Shown here: piece by piece, positions 5,589 to 26,050 of the stretch | How positions within the stretch are numbered: position 1 is the stretch's first letter | Layout of the letters: every line of letters starts with the position of its first letter | Notes under the pieces: model-generated | What the model saw: the letters and a program-made list of their open reading frames with translations, nothing else | Told to the model about the DNA's origin: nothing | The model's database searches: none | Made by a program: the position numbers and the translations under genes | Source of the DNA: Prolixibacteraceae bacterium | GTDB lineage: Bacteria > Bacteroidota > Bacteroidia > Bacteroidales > Prolixibacteraceae | Assembly: GCA_018399395.1 (NCBI GenBank) | Contig: JAGYOI010000002.1 | Span: forward strand, 1-26,050 | Length of the DNA: 26,050 nucleotides | Direction of reading: 5' to 3'

Positions 5589-5616
5589 AACAGGTTGAAA
5601 ACCTGTTCTCCCCTTA
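5589..5616. repeat. Palindromic intergenic repeat, copy 2
   Basis: The same unit as at 5488-5515: AACAGGTT, centre GAA, AACCTGTT (5589-5607), then CTCCCCTTA. It ends 77 bp before the efflux-pump start codon. It could be a REP-like intergenic element or a two-site operator for the efflux genes; the sequence alone does not decide. Confidence 0.7.
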
Positions 5617-5693
5617 AAAAAAAAGAGGTATCGAAACCATTAAGCAAAACGATTGTTTTAATTTTATTTACCAATCCTGTTAAAATCTATACC

Positions 5694-10058: not shown

Positions 10059-10064
10059 TTTGTC

Positions 10065-11189
10065 ATGAAAATATCATACTTATCAACCATTTTTCTTCTT
10101 GTAAGCATTTCATTTGCTTCTTGCGACCAAACAACAAACAATGATGAAGCTACAAAAACTGATGATACAACAATTCAGTTTACACGCCAGCAATTTGAAG
10201 CTACGGACATGAAGATTGATAACCCAAAGGTCCGGACGATAAATAACACAATACGGACAAACGGGTACATAAAACCATCGCCGGATGGGGTTGCTAAAAT
10301 TAACGCGGTGATACCCGGCATAATAAACGGATTAAAACACCCTGAAGGCACATACATAAAACAAGGAGAAATTCTTTTTCGCGTTAGTGGCCGTGAAGTT
10401 GTTAACGTGCAAAATAATTACGTAAAAGCCTGTTCTGACTTTGATTATGCCCAAACAGAACTTGAAAGGATTTCAAAACTGGTTAACGACCAAATAACTG
10501 CCCGAAAAGAGCTCACCAATGCCAAAAATAATTTCAAAATAGCCAAAGCCGAAAAAAAATCACTCGAAGCTATATTAAATCTCATGCACCTGGATCCGAC
10601 CCGGGTTGAACAGGGAAATATCAGTGCATACTTCAAAGTTCCGGCACCCATTGGTGGTTACTTATCCAAAGTAAACATTGACAACGGGCAATATGTAGAA
10701 CCACAAAACAATGCAGCAATAATTGTTGATAATAAAAAACTACAATTGGTGCTTAATGTATTTGAAAAAGATATCAGAAATTTAAGCCCGGGACAAACCG
10801 TATTGTTTTACGACCCTGACAGAAAATCGGACAAGCAGAAAGCAACCGTCTCACTAATTGGCCGTTCAATTAACCAGGATACCAAAACAATACCCTGCGT
10901 CGCAAAAATTGAAGACATTGAAGAAAAAATACTCATGAATGGCATGTATGCTGAATGTGAAGTAATAACTGACTCACGTGAAGCAAATGCCTTGCCACAG
11001 GAAGCCATAATTACAGAAAATACCAACACCTATGTTTTGGTTAAAACCAATGAAGAAGACAATAAACTCACATTCAACAAAGTAAAAGTTGATATTGGCT
11101 CAACATCAGCGGGATATACCGAAGTTAAAACAAAAGGGTTGAAAAATGTATTGATTAATGGTGCTTACTATTACCAGGCCCGGGAATAG
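10065..11189 (+). CDS. Efflux RND periplasmic adaptor (CusB/CzcB-like membrane fusion protein)
   Basis: A 374-residue periplasmic lipoprotein that joins the RND pump to the outer-membrane channel. The signal ends FASC, with C20 the likely acylated residue, followed by a polar Asp/Thr-rich linker. The lipoyl-like half-motifs surround a hairpin: GIINGLKHPEGTYIKQGEILFRV before, then a helical pair with ARKELTNAKNNFKIAKAEKKSLEA, then APIGGYLSKVNIDNGQYVEP. Beta-barrel strands (LQLVLNVFEKDI, GQTVLFYDP) and a membrane-proximal domain with EAIITENTNTYVLVK complete the CusB/CzcB order. No His- or Met-rich metal-binding extension is seen. It is the second gene of the efflux unit, and its stop codon is 2 bp from that of the converging rnfA. 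Confidence 0.88.
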   Translation: MKISYLSTIFLLVSISFASCDQTTNNDEATKTDDTTIQFTRQQFEATDMKIDNPKVRTINNTIRTNGYIKPSPDGVAKINAVIPGIINGLKHPEGTYIKQGEILFRVSGREVVNVQNNYVKACSDFDYAQTELERISKLVNDQITARKELTNAKNNFKIAKAEKKSLEAILNLMHLDPTRVEQGNISAYFKVPAPIGGYLSKVNIDNGQYVEPQNNAAIIVDNKKLQLVLNVFEKDIRNLSPGQTVLFYDPDRKSDKQKATVSLIGRSINQDTKTIPCVAKIEDIEEKILMNGMYAECEVITDSREANALPQEAIITENTNTYVLVKTNEEDNKLTFNKVKVDIGSTSAGYTEVKTKGLKNVLINGAYYYQARE

Positions 11190-11191
11190 AC

Positions 11192-11764
11192 TTAAACAAT
11201 ACCCGAGAACCCCATAAAAGCCATGGCCAATATACCGGCAGAGATCAATGCAATGGGCACGCCTTTCAAGCCTTTGGGCACATTTTGCATATCGGTATGT
11301 TCACGCAAGCCGGCAAAAATAATCAATGCGAGCCCAAAGCCCACCGCATTGGCAACAGCATACACAACACCCTCCATCAGGTTAAATTCTTTTTGGATAA
11401 CCAAAATAGCAACACCAAGTATGGCGCAGTTGGTGGTTATAAGCGGTAAAAACACACCAAGTGCCTGATATAACGACGGGCTTACCTTTTTTAGGACAAT
11501 TTCAACCAGCTGGACCAATGATGCAATGACCAGTATGAAAGATATTGTTTGTAAGTATCCTATCCCGAACGGTATGAGGATGTAATGTTGTATAAGAAAA
11601 GTTACGATAGTAGCCAAAACCATTACAAAAGCAACAGCCCCGGTCATACCCACGGCAGTTTCTATTTTTTTGGAAACTCCAAGGAACGGGCAAACCCCTA
11701 AAAACTGGTTCAATACAATGTTGTTAACCAGTATAGCCGATATGATGATAATAATGTATTCCAT
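11192..11764 (-). CDS. rnfA: RnfA, ion-translocating membrane subunit of the Rnf complex
   Basis: A 190-residue, six-helix inner-membrane protein of the RnfA/NqrE family, of usual length. Two cysteine sites are conserved: C25 in GVCPFLGVS and C113 in TTNCAILGVAI. In the related Nqr and Rnf complexes the equivalent cysteines of the RnfA/RnfE pair hold a [2Fe-2S] cluster inside the membrane. It is the last gene of the operon, 21 bp after rnfE. No terminator fits between it and the converging efflux adaptor gene. Confidence 0.95.
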   Translation of the reverse strand: MEYIIIIISAILVNNIVLNQFLGVCPFLGVSKKIETAVGMTGAVAFVMVLATIVTFLIQHYILIPFGIGYLQTISFILVIASLVQLVEIVLKKVSPSLYQALGVFLPLITTNCAILGVAILVIQKEFNLMEGVVYAVANAVGFGLALIIFAGLREHTDMQNVPKGLKGVPIALISAGILAMAFMGFSGIV

Positions 11765-11785
11765 TTTTACTTAATTTTTGGGTTT

Positions 11786-12376
11786 CTAAGCGTTTTTCTT
11801 GTTCAATCGGTTAATTACGGCAATAATGTAGCCCAACGCGATAAATGCACCGGGAGCCAGGATAAAAACAAGCATACCGTAGTCTTCGGGATAAATGGCA
11901 ATATCGAATAATTTACCACTGCCCAGCAGTTCACGCACACTTCCCAGAATGGTAAGCGCAAAGGCAAAACCAAATCCAATACCCAAGCCGTCAATAACCG
12001 ACGAGGTAATTGTATTTTTCGATGCAAAAGCTTCAGCACGGCCAAGCACAATGCAGTTTACCACAATAAGCGGGATGAACAGGCCAAGACTTTCGTATAA
12101 CGAAGGCAGGTAAGCCTGCATTACCATTTCCACAATGGTCACAAAGGTGGCTATAACCACGATAAAAGCCGGGATACGCACCTTATCGGGTATCAGGTTT
12201 TTAATGAGCGACACCACCAGGTTCGACATCACCAGCACAAATGTTGTGGCCAGACCCATGCCCAATCCATTAATGGCAGTTCCGGTTGTCCCAAGGGTTG
12301 GGCACATACCCAACAGCAAAACAAAAACCGGATTTTCTTTAATAAAACCTTTTGTAAAATTTTTCCACTGGTTCAT
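11786..12376 (-). CDS. rnfE: RnfE, ion-translocating membrane subunit of the Rnf complex
   Basis: A 196-residue, six-helix protein of the RnfE/NqrD family, the inverted-topology partner of RnfA. The matching cysteines are C25 in [12 protein letters not shown] and C108 in [15 protein letters not shown]. With RnfA it forms the core that carries electrons across the membrane through a shared [2Fe-2S] cluster (family knowledge). It lies 12 bp after rnfG and 21 bp before rnfA. Length and motifs are complete. Confidence 0.95.
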
Positions 12377-12388
12377 TTCTCAAATATT

Positions 12389-13051
12389 TTATTGTTCCGA
12401 TGAAGCTAAATCATCATCACTCGTATTCTGATCAATTTGTTGCGTGGCACCTGAATTTGAATCAGTATCCCACACATTATTCAAACAACGGTGCGCCCGG
12501 TTAAGGGCATCTAAAAATGCACGCGATGTAATGGTAGCAGCGGTAATGGCATCAACCTCGCCCCCATCTTTGCCCACACTCAGTCCCCCATCGGGGAAAG
12601 AACGGCCTACAACATTCTGACCGGGTTTTTCGGTATTCCCGAACCAGTCATCCATCTTCGATCCCAGACCGGGGGTTTCGGCATGTTTAAGCACCTGAAA
12701 ACCTGTAATTTCGCCTTCATCATCAATACCAACCATAACTTCGATATAACCACTAAACCCGCTGTATGTGTATGATTTAACAGCACTGGCAATCTCCTCT
12801 CCATCGGTACCGTATGCCGGGTATATTTCAATACTATCAGCCGCATCTTTAGGCAAAACTTTTATTACCTCGCCCAAATGATCATATTCGGGCAACACTG
12901 CGGCCAGTGCCATTTCCTGCTTTTTCATCTCAGTTTCGGCTATAGGCCCTTCAGTGGCGTCGTTAACCAAACCAAGCGATGCCGAAGCTATTAACGTGAC
13001 CCCAAAAAGTGAGATCACCATATTTTTAAAAGATGATTCTAACTTTGCCAT
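12389..13051 (-). CDS. rnfG: RnfG, flavoprotein subunit of the Rnf complex
   Basis: A 220-residue protein with one N-terminal transmembrane helix (about 11-29) and a periplasmic FMN-binding domain. The covalent FMN site is the Thr of DAITAATITS, T173, in the position of the usual S/T-G-A-T motif. Other family landmarks are HAETPGLGSKM (123-133) and the W in DDWFG. Its ATG overlaps the rnfD stop in TAATG, so the two are translationally coupled. After the FMN motif and a last helix, the protein ends with a polar, acidic tail of about 35 residues (from DTDSNSGATQQ onward) that I do not connect with a function. Confidence 0.93.
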   Translation of the reverse strand: MAKLESSFKNMVISLFGVTLIASASLGLVNDATEGPIAETEMKKQEMALAAVLPEYDHLGEVIKVLPKDAADSIEIYPAYGTDGEEIASAVKSYTYSGFSGYIEVMVGIDDEGEITGFQVLKHAETPGLGSKMDDWFGNTEKPGQNVVGRSFPDGGLSVGKDGGEVDAITAATITSRAFLDALNRAHRCLNNVWDTDSNSGATQQIDQNTSDDDLASSEQ

Positions 13052-14034
13052 TACTTTTTCTCTCCAAATCGTTTAGGTTTCACGTAATTATTAATAAGCG
13101 GCGTAAAGGCATTCATAATAAGAATTGCAAAAGAAATGCCCTCGGGATATGCCCCCCACAACCGGATACTTACAGTAATTAAACCAATCCCGACACCATA
13201 AATAAGTTGTCCCTTTTTGGCCATGGGCGATGAAACCATATCGGTAGCCATGTATATAGCACCAAGCATCATACCCCCTGACAACAGGTGAAACAGCGGA
13301 TCGGCATATTGCATCGGGTCAACCATCCATAATATTCCGGTAAAAACAAAAACCGTTGCAAAAATACTCACGGGAATATGCCAGGTTATCACTTTACGGA
13401 TAAGCATATAAACCATACCTAACAACAATAAAGCTGCTGATATTTCACCCAGCGAACCACTGAAGTTACCTAAGAGCAATTCATCGTACCCTGGTATTTT
13501 TTGCATAATTTCAGGTACCGTTGACCCACTTTTAATCCCTTCTTTCACCAAAGCCAAAGGGGTAGCTTCCGATGTTGCATCAACAGCCTGCCGGGTTACA
13601 TTAGGCCAGGTTGTCATTTGTACCGGAAATGAAATCAGTAAAAACACACGCCCAACCAACGCGGGGTTAAAAGGATTTTGCCCTAAGCCCCCAAACGACA
13701 TTTTACCAACACCAATGGCCACAAAGGCGCCAATTATCATAATCCATAAAGGCAAGCCGGCAGGTACGTTCATGGCCAGCAAAATTCCGGTTAATATTGC
13801 CGAACCATCGTTGATTGTCGGTTCAACTTTCATTAAATACTTTTGGATGAGCCACTCGATAAGCACACAGCTCACAACAGATGTTAAGGTTATTACAACC
13901 GCCGGGAGTCCGAATACAATAAATGACCAGGCCAGTGCCGGTAATAGGGCAAAAATCACGGTGTACATGATTTTTCTTACTGAATCGCCTTGTTTAATGT
14001 GTGGTGACGGCGTTATGGTGAATATTTTATCCAT
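13051..14034 (-). CDS. rnfD: RnfD, flavoprotein membrane subunit of the Rnf complex
   Basis: A 327-residue polytopic protein of the RnfD/NqrB family. Landmarks are the start ITPSPHIKQGDSVRKIMYTV, the helix GSAILTGILLAMNVP (77-91), GGLGQNPFNPALVGR (115-129) and the late MATDMVSSPM. The covalently attached FMN is expected on T158 in TSEATPLAL. The residue before Ala is Glu (E156), where the familiar motif has Gly. Together with RnfG it forms the flavin relay. It follows rnfC after 40 bp, the widest spacing but one inside the operon, and overlaps rnfG by one base. Confidence 0.94.
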   Translation of the reverse strand: MDKIFTITPSPHIKQGDSVRKIMYTVIFALLPALAWSFIVFGLPAVVITLTSVVSCVLIEWLIQKYLMKVEPTINDGSAILTGILLAMNVPAGLPLWIMIIGAFVAIGVGKMSFGGLGQNPFNPALVGRVFLLISFPVQMTTWPNVTRQAVDATSEATPLALVKEGIKSGSTVPEIMQKIPGYDELLLGNFSGSLGEISAALLLLGMVYMLIRKVITWHIPVSIFATVFVFTGILWMVDPMQYADPLFHLLSGGMMLGAIYMATDMVSSPMAKKGQLIYGVGIGLITVSIRLWGAYPEGISFAILIMNAFTPLINNYVKPKRFGEKK

Positions 14035-14074
14035 TTTAAATATCTTTTACCACTTATGGTTAATTATTTGGTTT

Positions 14075-15403
14075 TTATTTTCGGCTACGGATGATACCCC
14101 CAACGGTTTGTTTTCCATATCGTATATAATCGAGCAACGGGCGGTTGGCCGGACAAGTAAAGCTGCACGAGCCACATTCGATACAATCCATTACATTCTC
14201 ATGTTCGGCTTTGTCCCATATTTTCTTTTCGGCAAGTGTCATAAGCAAAAAAGGTTCAAGCCCCATGGGACAAACGCTAACACACCGCCCGCAACGGATA
14301 CAATTCAGAACCTGCTTACGGTGGCCTTCTTCTTCGTTGATGATTAGTACCCCTGAAGTACCTTTAGCCACAGGAATATCAATACTGGCAACAGCTTTCC
14401 CCATCATTGGGCCACCACTTATTACTTTTGCGGTATCTTCAGGCAATCCGCCGGCAGCTTCAATCAATTCTTTAACCGGTGTGCCAATTCGTACTTTAAA
14501 ATTTGATGGTTTTGAAAGCGACTTACCTGTTACGGTTACAATACGTTCAACCAGGGGTTTATTCTTCATTACCGCCTCGTACACGGCCAGTGCCGTACCA
14601 ACATTGTTCACTACTGCCCCAACCGCGATAGGAAGTGCCCCTGATGGAACTTCGCGTCCTGTTACGGCTTTAATAAGTTGCTTTTCGCCCCCTTGTGGGT
14701 ACTTTACTTTTAAAGGGCATACTTCAATACCTGAATAGTTTTCACTCAAAACGGTGAGATGTTCAATGGCATCGGGTTTATTGTTTTCGATACCAATAAC
14801 AGCCCGGTCAACACCGAGGGCTTTTTTCAGCAAGTTAATGCCCACCAATAGTTCTTCGCCATGTTCAAGCATTAAACGATGATCGGCGGTAAGATAGGGC
14901 TCACACTCTACCCCGTTAATAAGCAAAACTTCAGCTTTCATGCCCGGTGGGGGCGAAAGCTTAACATGGGTCGGGAATGTAGCCCCGCCAAGGCCTACAA
15001 TACCACCTTCTAATATTTTTTTGTTAATTGCTTTGGCATCAAGCCCGGTATTTTTTATTAAATCAGTCGATGTGTCAATCCCTTCGGCCCATTCATCACC
15101 ATCAACATCAATTACCACCGATTCTTTTTTATAGCCTGAGCTATCAAACACGGAGTCAATTTTCTTTACTTTTCCGGAAACCGAAGAATGGATATTGGTT
15201 GACACAAAACCGGCACTTTGTGCAATTAGCTGTCCGGCTTTGACCATATCGCCACGCTTGACAATTACTTTTGCAGGTGCCCCGATATGTTGTGCTATAG
15301 GAATTGTTACAGTTTTGGGAAGTGGTAACTTCTCAACCGCCTTATCAGCCGTAATTTTGTTTTCGGCCGGGTGAACACCACCTATTTTAAATGTTTTGAG
15401 CAT
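14075..15403 (-). CDS. rnfC: RnfC, NADH-binding iron-sulfur subunit of the Rnf complex
   Basis: A 442-residue peripheral subunit that exchanges electrons with NAD(H). The N-terminal barrel-sandwich part starts TFKIGGVHPAENK. The FMN/NAD site reads GLGGATFPTHVK (137-148), followed by INGVECEPYLTADHRLM. Two [4Fe-4S] motifs are complete: C368, C371, C374, C378 and C407, C410, C413, C417. The length is typical of the short RnfC form without the long Ala/Lys-rich C-terminal tail of enterobacterial RsxC. It sits 42 bp after rnfB. Confidence 0.95.
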   Translation of the reverse strand: MLKTFKIGGVHPAENKITADKAVEKLPLPKTVTIPIAQHIGAPAKVIVKRGDMVKAGQLIAQSAGFVSTNIHSSVSGKVKKIDSVFDSSGYKKESVVIDVDGDEWAEGIDTSTDLIKNTGLDAKAINKKILEGGIVGLGGATFPTHVKLSPPPGMKAEVLLINGVECEPYLTADHRLMLEHGEELLVGINLLKKALGVDRAVIGIENNKPDAIEHLTVLSENYSGIEVCPLKVKYPQGGEKQLIKAVTGREVPSGALPIAVGAVVNNVGTALAVYEAVMKNKPLVERIVTVTGKSLSKPSNFKVRIGTPVKELIEAAGGLPEDTAKVISGGPMMGKAVASIDIPVAKGTSGVLIINEEEGHRKQVLNCIRCGRCVSVCPMGLEPFLLMTLAEKKIWDKAEHENVMDCIECGSCSFTCPANRPLLDYIRYGKQTVGGIIRSRK

Positions 15404-15445
15404 TTTTTATCCTTTTAACGATGGAATACGACATTAAAATTTGTA

Positions 15446-16309
15446 TCAGGCCTGGGCCGTTTCGGTCTCTTTTTCCTTTTTCACCTTTCGCGGTGGAAAA
15501 TTTTCCTCAATAATGGCATTTGTCGGACAAACAGACACACATTTCCGGCAAAGGACACATTTATCAGAGTCGATAAATGCCAGGTTATTGCTAATGGTTA
15601 TTGCATCGTATTTACATTCTTTTTCGCATTTACCGCAACCGATACAAGCTACCTCGCATGATTTTTTGGCTACCCCGCCTTTGTCCTCGTTACGACAGGC
15701 AACATACACTTTACGGTATTTTGGCATTTGCTTACGTAATTCAAAAAGGTCTTTTGGACAAGCTTCAACACATGCACCACATCCCACACAGTTTTCATCG
15801 GTTACTACAGGCAACCCCGTTTCGGGATCCATGTGCAGGGCATCAAAATCGCAGGCATCGGCACAATCGCCAAACCCAAGGCAACCATATTGGCATCCGG
15901 TTTCCCCACCATAGTTCATGGCAGCAATGGCACAAGTTGAAGCACCTTCGTAGTGGTTTGTTTTCGGACGGTGCTCGCAGGTTCCGTTACAAAGCAACAC
16001 TGCAATACGTGGCTTCTGATTTTCAGCTTCGAGCCCCATAATCCCGGCAACCTTGTCCATCACCTCGCTACCCCCAACCGGACAATACTTGTTTTCGAGC
16101 GAATTATCCTTTACAATGGCTTCGGCAAAGGCCCGGCACCCGGCATATCCACACCCCCCGCAATTAGCGGCAGGCAGTGCCTCTTCAACTTCATCAATCC
16201 GGGGATCTTCGTACACATAAAATTTGCGGGCCGCAAAGTACAAAATAATCGCGGCAGCAATCCCGATGGAACTGATGGTAATAATCGTGTAAATTAGCGA
16301 TGCACTCAT
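15446..16309 (-). CDS. rnfB: RnfB, ferredoxin-accepting iron-sulfur subunit of the Rnf complex
   Basis: A 287-residue protein with one N-terminal helix (about 7-25), a Fe-S domain with C50, C53, C58 and C76, and a long ferredoxin-like part rich in cysteine. There, C174/C177/C180/C184, C222/C225/C228/C232 and C251/C254/C257/C261 form clear [4Fe-4S] motifs. C139, C143, C149 and C153 suggest a further one. It is the entry point for electrons from reduced ferredoxin. It is longer than enterobacterial RnfB (about 190 residues) because of the extra ferredoxin repeats, as in the anaerobe-type subunits. The C terminus is a charged tail. It lies 6 bp after rseC. Confidence 0.95.
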   Translation of the reverse strand: MSASLIYTIITISSIGIAAAIILYFAARKFYVYEDPRIDEVEEALPAANCGGCGYAGCRAFAEAIVKDNSLENKYCPVGGSEVMDKVAGIMGLEAENQKPRIAVLLCNGTCEHRPKTNHYEGASTCAIAAMNYGGETGCQYGCLGFGDCADACDFDALHMDPETGLPVVTDENCVGCGACVEACPKDLFELRKQMPKYRKVYVACRNEDKGGVAKKSCEVACIGCGKCEKECKYDAITISNNLAFIDSDKCVLCRKCVSVCPTNAIIEENFPPRKVKKEKETETAQA

Positions 16310-16315
16310 ATCTGA

Positions 16316-16738
16316 TTATTTGAGTGGTTCAACCACATAAGTAAATTTCTTTTTTATTTGTTTGCGATATAAATAGAGCAACAAGTAATAAGGTGCTAAA
16401 GAAGCTATCGAAATAATTCCAACCAGTCCTTCATTTTGTGTTTGCCCCGATAGAATAATCATTACAGTAAGTAATATGATAAAAGGCAATACATATCCCA
16501 GAAATAAGGCATTCATGCCTTGCGAAGATTTCAGCCGCACATTTACATGTTGCCCAACATTGTATCCTACCGGATTACAGTCGATGTCCAGTTCTTTGTC
16601 AGACTGTTCAGACATTGAACATGCCCCTTTTATCTCACAGCTGGCACACCCCGACTGCACAACAATGTTAACTGTTATGCCATCTTCACCTACAGACTTG
16701 ACAATGCCCGTATGTGTAACTTCATTTTTAGCGCTCAT
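16316..16738 (-). CDS. rseC: RseC-like protein (SoxR-reducing-system / Rnf accessory)
   Basis: A 140-residue membrane protein of the RseC family and first gene of the Rnf operon. A short N-terminal domain carries cysteines C31, C34, C40 and C54 (CASCEIKGAC at 31-40), enough for a metal or Fe-S site. Two transmembrane helices follow (about 78-98 and 102-122), then a basic tail. RseC proteins are known from the sigma-E and SoxR-reducing systems of enterobacteria and often sit next to rnf genes. A role in assembling or tuning Rnf is inference from position. A good -7 box lies just upstream. Confidence 0.82.
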   Translation of the reverse strand: MSAKNEVTHTGIVKSVGEDGITVNIVVQSGCASCEIKGACSMSEQSDKELDIDCNPVGYNVGQHVNVRLKSSQGMNALFLGYVLPFIILLTVMIILSGQTQNEGLVGIISIASLAPYYLLLYLYRKQIKKKFTYVVEPLK

Positions 16739-16757
16739 ATCTTAGTGTAATCGATTG

Positions 16758-16765
16758 CAAAACTA
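16758..16765 (-). promoter_or_regulatory. Candidate promoter -7 box of the rnf operon
   Basis: On the minus strand TAGTTTTG matches the Bacteroidota -7 consensus TAnnTTTG at every position. A start near 16751 would give a leader of about 12 nt before the rseC ATG at 16738. The -33 element is poor: CTG at 16786-16784 has the right spacing with one mismatch, and a TTTG lies too close. A 12-bp inverted repeat begins 30 bp upstream of the box. Confidence 0.5.
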
Positions 16766-16794
16766 TAGGTATTTTGCAAAGAACAGAATGATAT

Positions 16795-16856
16795 TTGTAA
16801 TATTTTTATATACATCGAGTAATTTAGATATATTCTCTGTAATTAAAATATTACAA
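16795..16856. repeat. Inverted repeat with 12-bp perfect arms upstream of rseC-rnf
   Basis: TTGTAATATTTT (16795-16806) and AAAATATTACAA (16845-16856) are exact reverse complements with a 38-bp spacer. They lie between the porin stop and the rnf promoter candidate. Possible roles are paired binding sites for a regulator of rnf, or a long stem in the porin 3' end. It has no trailing T run in the porin direction, so it is not a standard terminator. The rest of the 259-bp gap is AT-rich, with a small palindrome ACTTTT-AC-AAAAGT at 16897-16910. Confidence 0.55.
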
Positions 16857-16997
16857 CTGTCATATTATCAGAAATAAAGCACATATCAATCAATTTACTT
16901 TTACAAAAGTGCCACATCAACCATTTTGCATAGAACATTCAATCAAAATATTCAAAACGTTTGGTCCGTATTTTCTAAATAAGTTTTAAGTTTATAT

Positions 16998-18251
16998 TTA
17001 GAAATTAAAATGTGTCCGAAATCCATAAACATAGGTACGTTCAAAACAACTTCCACCCCAAATCATCTGGAAATGAGGCGACACGTGCGCCCACCTGTTC
17101 AACTGGCGACGGGCATAAACTTCAACAATATGCTCGGGGGCATAATCACAATTTACAAAGTTCGTTTCGCCATAGGCCGCACCTAAAACCACGGGGTTAT
17201 CCTTCACTTTATGAACAAATCTGGCACCTGCACTCCATGCTCTGTTTACCCCCCATAAATTGGCTATCTCTGTTTGATTTTCACCATAACGCCCAAAAAT
17301 GTTAAACTTGCCAAATACAACATCATCAAAACTAATACCCCAACCTGCTGAATTTCCTGTTTCGGGATGTTGATATGCATAAAACCGCAGGTTAGTCTCA
17401 AAATCGCTTCCCGGCAAAAATTTATACCCGATACTTGCAATTTTATACAATTCAGAAAATATTTCATCGCCGGTATTTTGAATTTTCGACATGGCATATT
17501 GTAAAAAAATCCGGTCGAACAACACGCCCCTGACCAAAGCACCGGGGGCATTTGACGGAACGGCAAAGGATGTGTTATTTATAAACGCATTGCTGATAAA
17601 CTGAACTGTTTCGTCGTTGGCCGATGTATTGTTATCAAAATAATTGGTCAGGTCAATTTTTCCGGTAATAAGCTTCAACTTACTTTTAAAAATCGAAAAT
17701 TCAGCCCAGGCTTCGAGCAAATTTAAACGGTTAACCCCATCTTCAGATAATGTTGAGCCCGCATCACCGTTAAGGCCTGAATAATTATGAAAGTAAGCAT
17801 CGGGGCCATTTCCCGTAATGGCCTCAAGGTCGAAAAACAACATTGAATACTGGTTAAAAGTAGCAATAGCAAAAATATCAAATGAGCTGGTTGCTGTTGA
17901 ATGCCAGATTTTATCGTGCCTGCCAGCTTGTAAAATAGTTGTTGAAGAACCCTTAAACTGAATTTGCCCCCGCTCTTCGTCCTGCATCATCTCAATTAGT
18001 GCATTTACCTGCTTATTCCGTGACAATACACTTATATCTTGTGTTTCAATTGTACTTATATCTAATATATCAAGCGAATCAACATTATCTGTTCCATTTT
18101 TCACAAACACACTGCTGTTGTTTTCATATTTTTCGAGCTTTTCCTCTAATATCCTGATGCGTTCGCCCAGCTCTTCAATATTACCATTTTGCTGGGCCAA
18201 ACCAACATTAGCACACACGAAAAGCACCATTACAAAAATGATTTTTTTCAC
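16998..18251 (-). CDS. OprB-family porin with N-terminal coiled coil
   Basis: A 417-residue outer-membrane protein. A signal peptide ends after A19 (NVGLA before QQNG). A short coiled coil follows (IEELGERIRILEEKLEKYEN, 25-44), then a linker and a beta-barrel whose last strand ends in Phe (TYVYGFRTHFNF). The central block with RLNLLEAWAEFSIF, KLITGKIDLTNYFDNN and FAVPSNAPG matches what I know of OprB-like carbohydrate porins, including the cyanobacterial branch. Substrate is unknown. The start is GTG at 18251, because the only upstream ATG runs into a stop after two codons. It is 110 bp downstream of the M48 protease gene and may be transcribed separately. Confidence 0.7.
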   Translation of the reverse strand: MKKIIFVMVLFVCANVGLAQQNGNIEELGERIRILEEKLEKYENNSSVFVKNGTDNVDSLDILDISTIETQDISVLSRNKQVNALIEMMQDEERGQIQFKGSSTTILQAGRHDKIWHSTATSSFDIFAIATFNQYSMLFFDLEAITGNGPDAYFHNYSGLNGDAGSTLSEDGVNRLNLLEAWAEFSIFKSKLKLITGKIDLTNYFDNNTSANDETVQFISNAFINNTSFAVPSNAPGALVRGVLFDRIFLQYAMSKIQNTGDEIFSELYKIASIGYKFLPGSDFETNLRFYAYQHPETGNSAGWGISFDDVVFGKFNIFGRYGENQTEIANLWGVNRAWSAGARFVHKVKDNPVVLGAAYGETNFVNCDYAPEHIVEVYARRQLNRWAHVSPHFQMIWGGSCFERTYVYGFRTHFNF

Positions 18252-18361: not shown

Positions 18362-19594
18362 TTATTTTGCATCTAAATGCCTTAAACGCTGAAGCAGTGT
18401 TGGATGTGAATAATGAAAGAACACATACAATGGATGTGGGGTGAGGTTACTCAGGCTTTTAACCGAAAGCTTTTTCAACGCCCTGCCCAGTTCGTTTGCA
18501 AAACCAAACTGTGCGGCATAAGCATCGGCCTGGTATTCATTTTTACGTGAAATAATATTCATCCCAATTCCCATGATAAAGGATAGAGGGCTGTACAAAA
18601 TACCAAACGCAATTAAACCAATGTGAAACTTAGCTTGTTCAACCCCCAGGGCTTGCGACAAGTATGGCGAAGACACCAATAATGAAAAAATGTACAGCAT
18701 AATTCCGGTTTGCACAATACCGAGCAACAATCCTGTAAGCGTATGCTTCTTTTTATAATGGCCGATTTCATGCGCCAAAACGGCTACAATTTCATCTGTT
18801 TCCAAATCTTCAATGAGTGTATCAAACAACACAATGCGTTTTTTGGGACCCAGACCGGTAAAATAAGCATTTGCTTTTGTTGAACGTTTTGAGCCGTCAA
18901 TCACATAAATATTTTTCAGCCTGAAGCCTGCCTCTTCTGCAAATTTGAATATCGCATCTTTAAGCTCTCCGTTTCCCAGTGGTTTTTGCTTGTTAAACAA
19001 GGGCACAATAAGCTCAGAATAAAACATCGACATAAACACCGAAATTAGTGTTACGGCCCCCCAGGCAATAAGCCAAAAGTAACCTTCGGTGCTATTCCAA
19101 ATCCACATAATAAGTGCCAGTATTCCACCGCCAAGAATAGCGCCCAGCAACCAACCTTTTACTTTATCGCTGATAAATATTTTGGGGGTAGATTTGTTGA
19201 ACCCGAATTTTTCTTCAATAACAAACGTATCGTAAATTTCAAATGGGGTTGTTAAAATGTTGGAAACAATACCAATAATGCCAAAAAACACCAAAGCGAC
19301 CAAAATATAATGCGAAGTTATTGATGAAGCCCAGCTATCAACTATGGCAAACCCATCAAAAAGAAGCATGGCAAGGATTAAAATAAATGAAAAGGCAGAG
19401 GTTAACATCCCAAATTTCCGGTTGGCTTTCTTGTAGGCCTGCGACCTGGCATATTCTTCTTCGTTGTATATCCCTTTAAGTTCATCGGGTAATTTCTCAC
19501 TCCAGCGGGTTGTATTTAAATAATCGAGCCATTGTTCAAAAACAAAATCAAAAACAATGATGATTAAGATAAGGTAAAATATTGTTTGTGCCAT
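18362..19594 (-). CDS. M48 membrane metalloprotease, Ste24/CAAX-protease-1 type
   Basis: A 410-residue inner-membrane zinc protease. The N-terminal half has several transmembrane helices and the CAAX-protease N-domain block FEIYDTFVIEEKFGFN (118-133). The active site is H275-E-I-G-H279, with the third zinc ligand E353 in NEYQADAYA. The C terminus carries the family motif YSHPTLLQRLRHL. The bacterial relatives are membrane-protein quality-control proteases; prenyl-protein processing is not expected. The ATG at 19594 is preferred over a TTG three codons upstream because homologues begin with the first helix. It follows the ABC gene by 50 bp and may share its transcript. Confidence 0.87.
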   Translation of the reverse strand: MAQTIFYLILIIIVFDFVFEQWLDYLNTTRWSEKLPDELKGIYNEEEYARSQAYKKANRKFGMLTSAFSFILILAMLLFDGFAIVDSWASSITSHYILVALVFFGIIGIVSNILTTPFEIYDTFVIEEKFGFNKSTPKIFISDKVKGWLLGAILGGGILALIMWIWNSTEGYFWLIAWGAVTLISVFMSMFYSELIVPLFNKQKPLGNGELKDAIFKFAEEAGFRLKNIYVIDGSKRSTKANAYFTGLGPKKRIVLFDTLIEDLETDEIVAVLAHEIGHYKKKHTLTGLLLGIVQTGIMLYIFSLLVSSPYLSQALGVEQAKFHIGLIAFGILYSPLSFIMGIGMNIISRKNEYQADAYAAQFGFANELGRALKKLSVKSLSNLTPHPLYVFFHYSHPTLLQRLRHLDAK

Positions 19595-19644
19595 AAAAAT
19601 CAAACTATAAGTTTAAAACTTCATCCGTTGAAACATCTTTCGAC

Positions 19645-22600
19645 CTATGCTTTATTGTTCCGATCATATATAAGGTCGCCCGGGCGTTGTTTGAAGATTT
19701 TATTAATGATAAGGCTAAACACATAGTAATTTACGATTGCAAGTACGATAACGGATAACAAAGTAAGACCATTCCATAAATCGAAATAAAGGGCTTTTTC
19801 AACTTCAAAAGGAGATATTAAGTCGATAATAAAGTAAACAAATCCAAGATATCCGAGTATACCGGCAAGCATAATTGCCAGAAAAAGCGGCATGAGAACA
19901 AAAATGTACATCATCCCCATGTAAATCCGTTTAATATCGATACCAAATGCCTTAAAGGTACCAATATTCATTTTAATTTTATTGAGGTGCGTGCTCAAAA
20001 TATTCGACAAGAAAATATTAATCATCAGCACACTAAAACCAATTAGAATAATGGACATGATACGGGTAAGCTGACTTACAAAATTGTAGTTTTTCATTTG
20101 CTCAATTTTGGCCATTTCGAGCTTAATACCAGAATCATCGGCAAATTTTTCAGCAAATTCATCAACTTTACCCAAACTGTTAAAGTTAACTGCGATATAA
20201 TCGGGACGGCGTGGCCGTAACATTTGCTGATTAGGAAAATAGCTTTGAACCAATTGGTGACCGGCTATTTCAGCTTCATCCATAAATGTTTGAACCTCAT
20301 CAGATGCCTTTAGCTGCTCAAACAAGCTATCGATATCATCAAGCATCACATATTCTGACCCAAAGAATGACACTTGTAAAACGTACATTTCTTTGTAACT
20401 ATAGTCATGCTTATAAATATCAACTGCATTAACTTCAAGCAAACCACCCTCATTCCAGTACTTTGTAAAAAACGAATCGCACACCTCCTTAAAATCAGTC
20501 ACATAAGTTGAATCCATCACGATATACGCATAGAGCTTTTTATTGTCTTTAAATAAAAAATTATCGCCCAGATACATATAATTATTGTAAAAATGCTGAG
20601 TAGAAATAAAATCAACACGTTCACCGGGTAATTTATTAACTACAGCCCTTATGGGAATAGGAACAAGACGATCATCTCCTTGTTTCTTAAAAATAAATGC
20701 CGGCTCATCAGAGCACTCAAGTTTATTGAGCATTTTTCGTGTAACAATAATCGAGATATCCTGCGAACCAGAGAAAGGAGAGCCAGCTGCATTGTTTATT
20801 TCGGGGTCAACAATTGTTTCAACCAGTGGGTCATCAAAAGGAATAGACCTTCCATCGACACCACTGTTAGGGCTTTCAGGCAAATTCCCCTGAAAATAGG
20901 CCGTCCATTTGTTGTACCCAACGATGGTGTCGTAATCGTAAAACTGTTGCAGCGAGTCGGAATTATACAAATCAATCACCCTGCCAGCCTGCCGGTTAAT
21001 TCCTGGTATTGGAGCATTTAACGAGCGCACAAACGGGTCTTCCATTTTTTCTTTCAGGTACTCGAGGCTACCGTTTGAAAAGCCAATTGCCAGAAAAGTA
21101 AAAAATAAAATGACAACAATAAGCCAGAAGTTTTTATTCCGGTTACCAAGCAATTCTTTGGTTTCGTTGCGGTAAAAAAGATGTTTAAAATCGTGTGGGA
21201 TAGCCGAGAAGGTAATCCAGTCTTGCTTAAGCTTTATTTTTGCAAATAGCTTATATTTAACATTAACCCAGTCCCAGGCAATACATAACTTATAAAATAT
21301 TTTGGCCACGATTCCTTTTAACGAAAAGAATTTTTTAAACGAGGCAAAGTCATCTTCATCCTGAACCACCTGTTTTTTTACAGGTTTATATACCATGCTC
21401 ATCCACTTAGTAAATGATGAGACCAGCTTTTGAAACAAAAAGGTAAAAAACGGTGCAACAGAAAATATCAGCCATGGGATAAACCCGATAACAGAAGCAA
21501 ACGGTGAGCTGCTTCTGCCTAATTCTTGTTGTTCTAAGCTGCTTATACTTCCCGGACGACGATCATCACGTTGTCCCTCAACAGCCGTTTTAAATTTCAG
21601 GTCCTGGATGGTACGGATTACATCATTAATTTTTATGTCGGCTTTTTTAATTTCACCATAAGCAAACTGGCTGATGTTTTCTTTAACAGTTGCATTGAGA
21701 AGCTCCTTATCAGACAATTTTGATGTTAACCATAATTTGAAATCTTTTTTCTTATCCTCCGGAAAATCGGGGGCAACATCCATTTCGTGCTTATGGCTAA
21801 CCATGGCCTGCTTCACCTCATGAAAAAACTCTTCCTCAACCTCATTATCAGATAGGTGCATAAGAATGCGCACAAAACTTTCGGTGTCAGAGTTCAACAA
21901 AAGTTCTATTTCTTCCTGGATGCGTTGTTCAAGCTCCCTCGACTCATCCCATTTCAGTTTATCGCGATCGTAGATAAAATGAGGGTCGATGGTTGCAACA
22001 TTGTTCTCCCGTTTTGATAAAACAATGATACGGTCAGCAAAGTCGAGTGTTAACGGGATATTATGAGAGACGATAATTGCACTTACATTATCGCGTTGTT
22101 TGGTAATAAAATCGCGAATAAAGTGCATTAATTTTACTGAGTTAAAGTGGTCGAGGTTACCGGTAGGCTCGTCGCCAAACAAAACAGTAAACTCAGGATT
22201 GATGGCCCTGGCAAATGCTAGTCGCTGGCGTTCACCGCCCGAGAATTCAAAAGGCTTTTTTTCGTATGAAAGGCTCGTCACACTCAGGTTTTTAACCAAA
22301 CTCTCAATAGCATTGAAATAAGCTTCCGATTCAGGCTTATTCTGGATGAGTTCGGTAAGTCCGACATTTTCGAGTGCTGTAAAATTGGGCATCAGGTTGG
22401 TGCTCTGGAAAATAAAACTGTAATAGAGCATCCGGACCTTGTAGCGTTCTTCTTCCTGGGTGTCACCCCACATTTCAGCCAGGTTATATTCATCGGTATC
22501 GGTAGGGTAAAACATAATAGACGATGACTCCCCGTTCACCGTCTGTGTCATCAACCCAAGAGTTTCAAGAAGTGTACTTTTTCCTGCACCCGATGGCCCC

Positions 22601-22746
22601 AGCAGTACGGTAATTTTGCGCTTTGGGATGTATAAATTTTTGGCCTCAAGCACCGGCTGGTCACTCACGTATGCACACGAAAGCTTTTCAATGTAAAAAA
22701 GTACATCTTTTTTATCGATACGATCAATCGTTGACTGATTTGACAT
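19645..22746 (-). CDS. ABC ATPase fused to FtsX/MacB-like permease, with large cytoplasmic insert
   Basis: A 1033-residue protein. The N-terminal ATPase is complete: Walker A GPSGAGKST (50-58), Q-loop Q114, signature FSGGERQRL (168-176), Walker B VLFGDEP (188-194), and H228. It resembles LolD/MacB ATPases. Next comes a charged helical insert (about 262-412), an amphipathic or membrane hairpin (417-445), another cytoplasmic stretch, a transmembrane helix at 538-556, an extracytoplasmic domain of about 330 residues, and three C-terminal helices (893-916, 941-977, 986-1014) with IGTFKAFGIDIKRI between the first two, typical of FtsX-type permeases. Such proteins transmit ATP-driven motion across the membrane rather than form channels. 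The substrate or partner is unknown. It starts 7 bp after the TssR-like gene, which is the likely partner. Confidence 0.8.
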   Translation of the reverse strand: MSNQSTIDRIDKKDVLFYIEKLSCAYVSDQPVLEAKNLYIPKRKITVLLGPSGAGKSTLLETLGLMTQTVNGESSSIMFYPTDTDEYNLAEMWGDTQEEERYKVRMLYYSFIFQSTNLMPNFTALENVGLTELIQNKPESEAYFNAIESLVKNLSVTSLSYEKKPFEFSGGERQRLAFARAINPEFTVLFGDEPTGNLDHFNSVKLMHFIRDFITKQRDNVSAIIVSHNIPLTLDFADRIIVLSKRENNVATIDPHFIYDRDKLKWDESRELEQRIQEEIELLLNSDTESFVRILMHLSDNEVEEEFFHEVKQAMVSHKHEMDVAPDFPEDKKKDFKLWLTSKLSDKELLNATVKENISQFAYGEIKKADIKINDVIRTIQDLKFKTAVEGQRDDRRPGSISSLEQQELGRSSSPFASVIGFIPWLIFSVAPFFTFLFQKLVSSFTKWMSMVYKPVKKQVVQDEDDFASFKKFFSLKGIVAKIFYKLCIAWDWVNVKYKLFAKIKLKQDWITFSAIPHDFKHLFYRNETKELLGNRNKNFWLIVVILFFTFLAIGFSNGSLEYLKEKMEDPFVRSLNAPIPGINRQAGRVIDLYNSDSLQQFYDYDTIVGYNKWTAYFQGNLPESPNSGVDGRSIPFDDPLVETIVDPEINNAAGSPFSGSQDISIIVTRKMLNKLECSDEPAFIFKKQGDDRLVPIPIRAVVNKLPGERVDFISTQHFYNNYMYLGDNFLFKDNKKLYAYIVMDSTYVTDFKEVCDSFFTKYWNEGGLLEVNAVDIYKHDYSYKEMYVLQVSFFGSEYVMLDDIDSLFEQLKASDEVQTFMDEAEIAGHQLVQSYFPNQQMLRPRRPDYIAVNFNSLGKVDEFAEKFADDSGIKLEMAKIEQMKNYNFVSQLTRIMSIILIGFSVLMINIFLSNILSTHLNKIKMNIGTFKAFGIDIKRIYMGMMYIFVLMPLFLAIMLAGILGYLGFVYFIIDLISPFEVEKALYFDLWNGLTLLSVIVLAIVNYYVFSLIINKIFKQRPGDLIYDRNNKA

Positions 22747-22753
22747 TTAGATT

Positions 22754-25378
22754 TTATTTGGTATAATCGCCATAAAGAGTTTCAATAATACTTTTTTGCC
22801 CGAACGATTCAGTTTGATGAGGGAAAATTCTTGAATCGATCCAGTAATGCTTCAATCCGGAACCGGTACCCATCGGGATACTAAATGTTGCTTTAAAGTT
22901 ATTGTACTCTTCGTTATATTTATCAAAATATTGTTTGAATTTTTCTCTCATATCGGGATCACTATCAACCTCACCATTGCTCAAATGATAAAGATACTCG
23001 TAAAAGATGGTCCACATGTGGTCTTCGAAGAAATCTCCGGTTAACAAGTTTTGACCATCGTAAATACTTTGGATATGCCCTTTGGTTATACACCAGTCAA
23101 TCAAGTACTCATACAACATAACATCGGGGAAACGTTGAGGAGAAGTTACATCGAGCAACTTAATATCTTTATATTTTTCTTTTCCGCCCCAGCCTGTCAA
23201 AATGGAAGACAGCGTATAAAGGCTCAGCGTATCAATCGCTTCGTTGTTGCCTTCGGGGAAATAACCCAGAATATCAACGAGAATTTCGCTCCACCCATAT
23301 ACAATAAACGAGCGTGATTCATTTGGTGGCAGCGACATTTCATCAGTAGGTATTAACCGTTCTAACGATCGCTTAATATAGAACATATCCTGACGTGACA
23401 TTAAAAGTACATCCTGATAAAGTGGATGTGACAAACGGTCGTCGAACCTGCTGGTATAACCGGTATTATAAACCTGACCATTTTTCTGGAATACAATATC
23501 AAGTTCGTCATCAGATATACCCTCCTCGTTCAAACTGGCAATAAATGAATTCAATTCGCGGGCATGATCGCCTTCGATTTTACCATTCAGGTATTCTGAG
23601 ATTCCTTCAAGCTTGTAATTTACTTTTTCATCAATATCTGCAATCCCGTCGCTCAATTCCTTCATAAATACCGATGGATGAACACTACCACCATCGGGTG
23701 CTTTTTTGAAATACCCGGGCACGCCAACAGGTGAAGCTATGGTTACTTCCCGGTCATCATCTTGCAAAATATTTGATTTATCTAAGCCATTAGAAGGGTT
23801 GCGCTTTATTGCAACCTGGGTCATAAGACTTTCAATTTGCGAGCGAAAAGCATCATAGGCAGGCTTCATATCTGATGCAACACGGTGGTGCATTTGATAG
23901 GCAAAAAGATTAATATTCTTCTTAGCCATTAAATCAGACAGTTCATCCTCCTGTACGTTGGTATAATCATCATGTTCCTGATTGTCGCAACCCATAAATG
24001 TTGTACGATTATGATTACCGGCATCGCCAATTAAAACCATAAAATTTGATTCGCCCGAAGGTGGGTCAAATCGCTCAATAGCCCTTTTCATTCCATAAAA
24101 AACAGCTTCTTCGGGGTCTTTATTGCAACGGTTAAAAGTTGGGGTCATGAAGCGGCTAAGCGTACTGTTAATACTATTGTAGTTTGATGTTAAATCACGA
24201 GAATACTGCACCGTATTGGCTTTCCCTTCAGAAGCATCGCGATACAACAATATGCCAAACCGGTAATCATTTTTACTGTCGAGCAGATTACGCACAGTAC
24301 GTTTCAGTGCATTTTGAATCGCTCCGGAATAAGGAACCATACTACTTGAAGCATCGACAACAAAAATAATGTTCACATTTCGAAGCGCAGCCGACATTGA
24401 ATCAATTACATGTTTAATATTGGCAAACTGCAGGCTCGACAATGTCTCTCCATCTTCTGAACGTAAATCTCCAATTACACCTACTTTCGATTCTCCGTTA
24501 TATACATCGAGTACAGGAAAGCGGTCCACTTCACCAATATACCGGTTTTCATAATAACCAGGCCCTTCAGTATAAATTACACTACCCCCGTTCTTTTGAG
24601 AAGTAATTTTTGCTTTTATTCCTTTTTGCTTCCGTTCAGCCACGGCTTCTTCGTCCCAGTTCATCTCATAAGCCAAACGATGGTTCCATGCAGTAGTTTG
24701 CGATTTCAACACCCATCCTTTAATGCGGCTCCTGTCTTGTTCCACATCCTCTATCTCGGGTATATCACCTAGTAAATAAGCATTTGGAGTTTCTTTGTAC
24801 ACATAGTTAATCTGGTAAACCAAGGCTGAATTAACTGAATCGCCCGATTGGCACCGCGGATTTGAATAGTATTCGGGAACCCTTATGGTTTGCTGATCAT
24901 CGGAGATGATATTAAGCACCATTGCTTTTTTATTAAATATCCCATCCTTAAAACCTGGAAGGTTAACATCGCGGGTTTTTAAACAATTACGCCATAAAAG
25001 CATGTTGTCTTTAAGTACCCAAACAGCATTACCGGCGGCACCTTCTTTAAGATTACCCCTGAAGTCGACCGCATCAAACGGAACAATTTTAATAGCATTT
25101 TCTGACTCATTTACAACATACATTGGCTGCATGAAATCCAGTTGTTCACCGGTTACATCGGTACATGAACGATTTGAATATACCGGATTATCAGGCCGAT
25201 CGGAAAAAACGACCCATAATGCCCCTTCTTTAGTTGCTGATCCGGGAAAAGCTGCTGAAGCATTATCCATCGGCATTAAGTATTTACCTGGGGTCCGCAT
25301 TACAGCATGCTGGGCTTCAATACTTTTAAAGGTAAACAAAAGCAACAATATCGAGCTCAAATATAATATTCTCTTCAT
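22754..25378 (-). CDS. Secreted VWA-domain protein resembling TssR
   Basis: An 874-residue periplasmic protein. The signal peptide is cleaved probably after A22 (SIEA before QHAV). There is no lipobox. The N-terminal part (about 50-240) holds two SH3-like modules, recognisable by AVWVLKDNMLLWRNCL (118-133) and KGWVLKSQTTAWNHRL (220-235). A von Willebrand A domain follows, with metal site D342-A-S344-S-S346, a candidate T412 or T414, and D452 in LIGDAGN. The last 400 residues are mostly helical and unassigned. The N-terminal pattern (WVVFSDRPDNPVYS, MYVVNE, LLWRNCL, KAMVLN) recalls TssR, a component of the Bacteroidota type VI secretion system, but this is from memory. It leads a unit with the ABC fusion gene 7 bp downstream. 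Confidence 0.62.
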   Translation of the reverse strand: MKRILYLSSILLLLFTFKSIEAQHAVMRTPGKYLMPMDNASAAFPGSATKEGALWVVFSDRPDNPVYSNRSCTDVTGEQLDFMQPMYVVNESENAIKIVPFDAVDFRGNLKEGAAGNAVWVLKDNMLLWRNCLKTRDVNLPGFKDGIFNKKAMVLNIISDDQQTIRVPEYYSNPRCQSGDSVNSALVYQINYVYKETPNAYLLGDIPEIEDVEQDRSRIKGWVLKSQTTAWNHRLAYEMNWDEEAVAERKQKGIKAKITSQKNGGSVIYTEGPGYYENRYIGEVDRFPVLDVYNGESKVGVIGDLRSEDGETLSSLQFANIKHVIDSMSAALRNVNIIFVVDASSSMVPYSGAIQNALKRTVRNLLDSKNDYRFGILLYRDASEGKANTVQYSRDLTSNYNSINSTLSRFMTPTFNRCNKDPEEAVFYGMKRAIERFDPPSGESNFMVLIGDAGNHNRTTFMGCDNQEHDDYTNVQEDELSDLMAKKNINLFAYQMHHRVASDMKPAYDAFRSQIESLMTQVAIKRNPSNGLDKSNILQDDDREVTIASPVGVPGYFKKAPDGGSVHPSVFMKELSDGIADIDEKVNYKLEGISEYLNGKIEGDHARELNSFIASLNEEGISDDELDIVFQKNGQVYNTGYTSRFDDRLSHPLYQDVLLMSRQDMFYIKRSLERLIPTDEMSLPPNESRSFIVYGWSEILVDILGYFPEGNNEAIDTLSLYTLSSILTGWGGKEKYKDIKLLDVTSPQRFPDVMLYEYLIDWCITKGHIQSIYDGQNLLTGDFFEDHMWTIFYEYLYHLSNGEVDSDPDMREKFKQYFDKYNEEYNNFKATFSIPMGTGSGLKHYWIDSRIFPHQTESFGQKSIIETLYGDYTK

Positions 25379-25617: not shown

Positions 25618-26050
25618 TTAGTACATTTGCAATTTATGTAGCTTACTATATTCACCTTTCTGATCAATTAATTCATCGTGTTTTCCTTGTTCTACAATTT
25701 TTCCTTTTTTGAACACATAAATTACGTCAGCATTTTTGATGGTCGACAAACGGTGGGCTATAACAATTGAGGTTCTATTTTTCATGAGATGTTCCAGCGC
25801 ATCTTGCACAAGTTTTTCCGATTCCGTATCGAGGGCGCTTGTGGCTTCATCCAGAATCATGATCGGGGGGTTTTTCAAAACGGCCCTGGCTATAGATAAT
25901 CGTTGACGCTGACCGCCTGAAAGTTTACTTCCGCGGTCGCCAATGTTGGTTTCGTATCCATCGGGATATTGCGCTATAAATTCATGGGCATGTGCAATTT
26001 TTGCCGCATTTATAATGTCTTCCTCCGGAATATTATCCATTCCAAAGGCG
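25618..26050 (-). CDS. ABC exporter ATPase domain, 3' end (MsbA/multidrug type), cut by window edge
   Basis: The last 143 codons of a gene that continues beyond the right edge. The readable frame runs through A-F-G before MDNIPEED, matching the NIAFG segment of ABC exporters, so the internal ATG at 26040 is not the start. The signature [14 protein letters not shown], Walker [13 protein letters not shown] and switch His in [10 protein letters not shown] are intact. The C-terminal [11 protein letters not shown] is typical of MsbA/LmrA-like half transporters with a fused membrane domain upstream. Substrate cannot be told from this part; lipid or drug export are the common options. Confidence 0.88.

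Follow-up and report, generated by a model that had tools for sequence, protein, structure and literature searches.

TssR is known as a part of the membrane complex TssNQOPR of the Bacteroidota type VI secretion system (T6SS), termed T6SSiii (PMC10781749). As stated in the text of that 2024 paper, homologues of TssNQOPR were not detected outside T6SS loci and the origin of the complex is hard to identify; the words ABC, ATPase, transporter and permease are absent from the part of its main text available to us. Type VII ATP-binding cassette (ABC) proteins, as in MacAB-TolC, LolCDE, FtsEX-EnvC and YbbAP-TesA, are described as machines in which ATP binding leads to motion of periplasmic parts (PMC5985334), and for YbbAP-TesA the periplasmic partner is reported to be encoded beside the ABC protein (PMC12646458). 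A gene pair that joins these two families is described here from a stretch of 26,050 nucleotides (the window) of a Prolixibacteraceae bacterium (GCA_018399395.1, contig JAGYOI010000002.1, positions 1-26,050, forward strand). No title or abstract opening in the literature retrieved on TssR, T6SSiii and Type VII ABC proteins in Bacteroidota describes a TssR-like/ABC pair.

The pair consists of a TssR-like protein with a von Willebrand factor A (VWA) domain and an ABC ATPase-permease. The two genes stay together wherever the arrangement could be tested, and we consider it probable (roughly 0.65) that their products form one envelope machine, in which the ABC protein moves or gates the periplasmic TssR-like protein. 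The original prediction, made from the sequence of the window, described two minus-strand genes 7 bp apart, and the open reading frames (ORFs) at 22754-25378 and 19645-22746 bear this out. The features of the pair are as follows.

22754..25378, minus strand: TssR-like VWA protein gene (874 aa, ATG start, open ORF)
24995..25297, minus strand: TssR N-terminal barrel domain (residues 28-128; Pfam PF17643, 41.6 bits)
23807..24397, minus strand: TssR VWA domain (residues 328-524)
24341..24355, minus strand: loop DASSS of the metal ion-dependent adhesion site (MIDAS) (residues 342-346; the loop-3 Asp is residue 452)
19645..22746, minus strand: ABC ATPase-permease gene (1033 aa, ATG start, open ORF; Type VII architecture in the predicted model)
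21961..22746, minus strand: nucleotide-binding domain of the ABC protein (residues 1-262; Walker A, signature, Walker B and H-loop motifs)
21202..21960, minus strand: long insert between the ATPase and the first membrane helix of the ABC protein (residues 263-515; partly of low confidence)
20116..21039, minus strand: extracytoplasmic domain of the ABC protein (residues 570-877; between membrane helix 1 and helices 2-4)

A sequence matching the sigma-70 consensus at 12/12 positions lies across the boundary of the two genes (22740-22767, plus strand), antisense to both; the total number of promoter-like matches does not exceed that in shuffled sequences.

A common ancestor of the VWA protein and TssR had been proposed, with a search by the Pfam TssR profile as the check. 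In this search the 874-aa protein matched two TssR domains above the Pfam cut-offs of 25.7 bits, TssR_VWA (PF20782) at 56.5 bits and the N-terminal barrel (PF17643) at 41.6 bits. PF20780 and PF20781 were unmatched; the profile match nonetheless spans nearly the whole of TssR. Judged by these sequence matches the window protein is a true TssR homologue, and the proposed common ancestry is supported. Compared with TssR of T6SSiii, to which it is homologous along almost the full length, the window protein is encoded without T6SS genes around it, is paired with an ABC protein, retains an intact MIDAS and carries an extra C-terminal part past the aligned region. Where the original prediction had described SH3-like modules, Pfam assigns a barrel to the N-terminal part. 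An N-terminal signal sequence was recognized by eye, and a lipobox sought in the same way was not seen, there being no Cys within the first 27 residues. In this it differs from TssR of B. fragilis, for which a lipoprotein signal is reported; a lipobox was seen by eye in 4 of 18 T6SS TssR sequences, and thus the lipoprotein signal is not general. The modelled VWA domain is nearest, among the chains examined, to integrin beta I-like domains. The MIDAS together with the loop-3 Asp is intact in 11/18 ABC-linked, 0/18 T6SS and 36/42 unlabelled sequences, and the MIDAS is intact in the window clade. No solved structure matching the TssR-like protein by sequence was found.

The neighbourhood of homologues was surveyed at three levels, as the original prediction had proposed. 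Within a set of 61 genomes (its own and 60 relatives), the VWA protein was found in 12: all 8 sampled from the genus, 4 of 29 from the rest of the family and none of 24 from the rest of the order. The same 12 genomes carry an ABC homologue scoring far above generic ATPases, several of these being cut by contig ends. The ABC gene comes next in the 10 of the 12 in which the contig runs past the VWA gene; the contigs of G001 and G031 end inside it. A scan of named genomes gave 46 TssR loci, 19 without the T6SS gene tssC in the stretch examined and 27 with it. The former include 11 loci of the window family again and 8 distant ones (22-29% identity over the best segment), and an ABC ATPase is next in 17 of the 19, the remaining two (L034 and L035) being the contig ends of G001 and G031. 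In the 27 TssC-linked loci (Pedobacter, Chitinophaga and similar), the TssR match starts at a distance of about 5-7 kb from TssC, and no ABC match was obtained in any of them. Finally, among 392 genomes across Bacteroidota (its own included), TssR_VWA was matched at E 1e-6 in 18 and the permease profile at E 1e-8 in 4 (the window genome, G124, G218 and G099), each time beside a TssR_VWA match. PF17541, the TssC family, was positive in 12 of the 17 other genomes with a TssR_VWA match, and the permease profile matched none of these 12. The TssR_VWA matches of G256 and G266 and the second one of G385, with no ABC module alongside, were taken as other VWA proteins. Taking the 12 genomes of the window family, the 8 distant ones and G099, G124 and G218 together as 23 module genomes, the ABC gene adjoins the TssR-like gene in 21 of the 21 that can be tested. 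Since it is adjacent in every one of these, the pairing is confirmed as conserved and not due to chance; the pair is real but uncommon. In addition, 16 of the first 49 database clusters listed for the VWA protein match an ABC cluster in the length of the longest contig, which suggests linkage. Database entries of Roseimarinus sediminis include both proteins, on contigs of equal length. None of the contrary outcomes that the original prediction had named (no TssR match, no conserved neighbourhood, or an ABC protein mostly without the VWA gene) was observed.

The pair had also been described as lacking type VI secretion genes. This holds for the window, where the Pfam scan of 18 ORFs found no type VI family besides TssR and a set of T6SS profiles gave the same result. 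Genome-wide, TssC (PF17541) was the sole T6SS marker searched, several genomes being incomplete or of unstated completeness, so that T6SS of other types may still be present. No match to it was obtained in any of the 12 genomes of the window family that have the pair (completeness at least 90% in 5; 56.7% in the window's own genome), nor in 21 of the 23 module genomes, with two T6SS control genomes positive in the same search. The machine in the window genus appears to work without T6SSiii. The description has to be qualified for G454 and G459, both of which carry TssC.

These two genomes were analyzed with the T6SS profile set, run on 25 locus stretches, some short ones being left out. Gene names in this set follow the gene order of the reference locus L107 and what we take to be the usual assignments; Pfam backs TssC, TssD and TssR alone. 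In G459 one 41-kb contig carries both the pair and matches to the ClpV, TssB, TssC, TssE, TssF, TssI, TssK, TssN and TssD profiles. Upstream of the pair are a gene resembling TssO/TssQ (E 1e-8 and 1e-6) and one resembling TssP (E 6e-7), and two further genes separate the TssP-like gene from the pair. In G454 a TssP homologue (E 1.2e-32) is located two genes upstream of the TssR-like gene, with TssC on another contig. In each of the two, the T6SS TssR profile finds only the one TssR borne by the pair. In at least these two genomes the TssR-ABC pair seems to be used by a T6SS, and G454 and G459 look like bridges between the ABC module and the T6SS. G454 also encodes an 824-aa protein matching the TssP profile (E 1e-25) between the TssD and TssI genes (L119, 12905-15379).

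A TssP homologue near the pair in two T6SS genomes speaks for another reading, in which a type VI system was lost and only TssR and an accessory ABC protein outlasted it as a relic. We regard this as quite unlikely. At E 0.01 or better, TssR was the sole T6SS profile matched in 21 stretches outside G454 and G459, one of them the window. Across the first 49 database clusters listed (some partial) the VWA protein retains 59-91% identity, ABC homologues at least 60% identical occur in about as many clusters, and the ABC motifs, like the MIDAS in the window clade, are intact. The direction of descent in the trees also argues against a relic, if not decisively. When three other VWA proteins serve as the root, T6SS TssR is nested in the ABC-linked group of the VWA-domain tree and not the reverse, with the G454-type proteins (L040 and L042) near T6SS TssR. 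The nesting persisted, with support of 89/97, when the MIDAS columns were masked and long or unlabelled sequences removed. A single clade of ABC-linked sequences was not rejected by the approximately unbiased (AU) test (p 0.222), and unrooted trees show the split only, so that a firm claim on the polarity of TssR descent was dropped. In unrooted full-length trees, which include some long branches, labelled T6SS and ABC-linked sequences separate with one change: the split has an SH-aLRT (Shimodaira-Hasegawa-like likelihood ratio test) support of 98 with 58 sequences, the T6SS side including one unlabelled sequence, and 100/99 with 24. The G459 protein (L065), on a long branch, falls outside T6SS TssR in every tree holding it and was left out of the masked tree; the ABC tree leaves L040 unplaced.

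We tentatively suggest, as a possibility short of even odds, that the TssR-like-ABC pair is the older machine and that the T6SS recruited TssR from it, first with the ABC protein and later without. If so, the role of the ABC protein near TssP in G454 and G459 would be to gate, energise or recycle the membrane complex of the T6SS, and the G459 protein would either stem from a second recruitment or be misplaced in the trees.

The original prediction had called the second protein a LolD/MacB-type ATPase fused to a permease with a large extracytoplasmic domain, and the predicted model supports this architecture. The 1033-aa protein matches ABC_tran at 73.6 bits (Pfam cut-off 25), and its ATPase motifs are intact in the alignment. 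Its AlphaFold model shows an N-terminal nucleotide-binding domain, four transmembrane (TM) helices and a large ectodomain between TM1 and TM2, as in Type VII proteins, and aligns to MacB over 596 residues with a root-mean-square deviation (rmsd) of 6.7. As judged by the model, the protein is a Type VII (MacB-class) machine, sharing with MacAB-TolC, LolCDE, FtsEX-EnvC and YbbAP-TesA the N-terminal ATPase, the four helices and the TM1-TM2 ectodomain. Like these systems it has a candidate periplasmic partner gene next door; unlike them, the partner is a TssR/VWA protein, and an insert of about 250 residues follows the ATPase in the window clade. This insert is absent from 8 distant relatives aligned, and other proteins 29-42% identical are equally long. 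The FtsX-like permease family of Pfam is matched above the cut-off in the relative L041 (31.0 bits) and below it in L065 (14.7 bits). No solved structure matching the permease by sequence was found.

Among NCBIfam models LolD scores best, and for the ATPase part LolD is also one of the best-matching solved sequences. This might point to an extractor like LolCDE or YbbAP, in which the ABC protein pulls a lipoprotein or lipid from the inner membrane and hands it to the TssR-like protein as carrier or chaperone. The LolD and YbbA folds match over the ATPase domain alone, a domain common to many ABC proteins, and all NCBIfam scores are far below their cut-offs: LolD 114.6 against 307.75 bits, MacB 68.2 against 966 and FtsE 97.9 against 264.85. 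The partner is a multi-domain VWA protein and, by its Pfam domains and VWA fold, no carrier or enzyme of the LolA or TesA type. An extractor is thus doubtful.

For the machine favoured here, in which the ABC protein moves or gates its neighbour, the following mechanism may be proposed. The ABC protein would be an ATPase-permease of the MacB/LolCDE/FtsEX class, presumably an inner-membrane dimer, and ATP would drive the opening and closing of its extracytoplasmic domains. This motion would act on a partner exported to the periplasm, the TssR-family protein. The evolutionary distances of the TssR-like proteins parallel those of the ABC proteins. We infer direct contact, ATP-driven motion and ligand binding for the pair. 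The VWA protein is proposed, by analogy, as the periplasmic arm moved by the ABC protein, because Type VII ABC proteins drive periplasmic motion and the partner in YbbAP-TesA is encoded next door. The integrin-like VWA domain and the intact MIDAS suggest binding of a further protein: in the window clade the domain may grip another envelope or surface protein, the grip being switched by the ABC cycle.

Several observations weigh against this machine. The window ABC protein scores only 12.3 bits with the FtsX-like permease family (cut-off 25.5), the rmsd of the MacB alignment is high, and the predicted TM score (pTM) of the ABC model is 0.54. The MIDAS is incomplete in 7 of the 18 ABC-linked sequences, and metal binding is therefore no general requirement. 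The pair is patchy, as seen in the 12/61 relatives and the 4/392 genomes of the phylum sample, and the mirror-tree correlation behind the parallel distances is uncorrected for species history.

The same Type VII class includes FtsEX-EnvC, and the text of PMC10781749 calls the wall crossing of the T6SSiii complex unknown. Control of a cell-wall hydrolase, in which a peptidoglycan enzyme would be activated when the ABC protein moves the TssR-like protein, is nevertheless very unlikely in our view, no peptidoglycan hydrolase domain being above cut-off in the pair or the neighbours scanned. A CHAP match below cut-off occurs in L065, among T6SS genes, and an LpoB-type gene is present in the window, far from the pair.

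The presence of TssR homologues outside T6SS qualifies the published statement in PMC10781749. The origin of one T6SS component becomes testable, the location of the TssR-like family suggests where TssR may have come from, and a likely new Type VII ABC system is added. The database name 'type VI secretion system protein TssR' is unsafe as a T6SS marker.

Among the neighbouring genes, an M48 protease had been suggested as a further member of the system.

18362..19603, minus strand: M48 CAAX-type protease gene, starting 41 bp past the ABC gene (both M48 Pfam domains above cut-off)

The suggestion is weak: of the 8 near-clade loci that extend downstream, 7 have the protease as a direct neighbour, whereas none of the distant loci examined does. 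As a neighbour in the near clade only, it is probably not a core part and was set aside. An MsbA-like ABC gene (25618-26049, minus strand) lies upstream of the VWA gene in the same orientation and is kept in 7 other near-clade genomes.

Surface proteins are encoded upstream in several distant loci, with SprB repeats, PKD domains or secretion tails of the type IX secretion system (T9SS), some matches being below cut-off. The giant protein upstream of the TssR-ABC triad in L098 (1-4791) contains SprB repeats in six stretches as well as a T9SS secretion tail, and that in L099 (3-4586) is its homologue. At least 75 secretion-tail proteins were counted in 10 of 14 genomes (at most 150 candidates scored). 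Because such genes are so common, a surface-protein role is no more than a lead, and a T9SS/SprB adhesin system was set aside as such.

FtsZl1-vWA operons are predicted, in the text of PMC2875224, to be membrane-remodelling systems. The triad adjoins FtsZl1 in L041 and SrfB-SrfC in L043 only. FtsZl1 and SrfB are each above cut-off in 2 of the 23 module genomes (4/23 for either, two on another contig; 0/12 in the window family), one of each adjoining the triad, and a general FtsZl1 or SrfB/SrfC system was rejected. No TssR-like gene occurs in the 20 kb examined at the SrfB locus of G218, and in G452 the contig with FtsZl1 is too short for a judgement. In L041, joined with L111, the triad is followed by two genes and then by FtsZl1 (Tubulin_2) together with a gene for a trypsin-like protein; the genes on the opposite side were recognized by eye as PP2C-like, kinase-like (two) and FHA-like. 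L043 (7509-22886) carries three tandem TssR-like genes (the middle one 492 aa), then the ATPase, permease and SrfB genes, one further gene, and SrfC/Virul_Fac. The records of L043 and L044, named Acetofilamentum and Caldiserica, carry Bacteroidota-type TssR-ABC genes; the TssR-like protein of L044 is 87% identical to that of L039, from a Bacteroidales metagenome-assembled genome, and so the record names may be wrong.

Elsewhere in the window, a CusA/AcrB-type RND (resistance-nodulation-division) pump of 1487 aa fused to an outer-membrane efflux (OEP) domain is followed by a CusB/HlyD-type adaptor (5595-11189, plus strand). Between these efflux genes and the M48 gene are Rnf-type electron-transport genes, an RseC-domain gene and then an OprB-like porin gene (11192-18251, minus strand). 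The Rnf/porin order is largely kept in G001, where one opposite-strand ORF replaces the ferredoxin-type gene.
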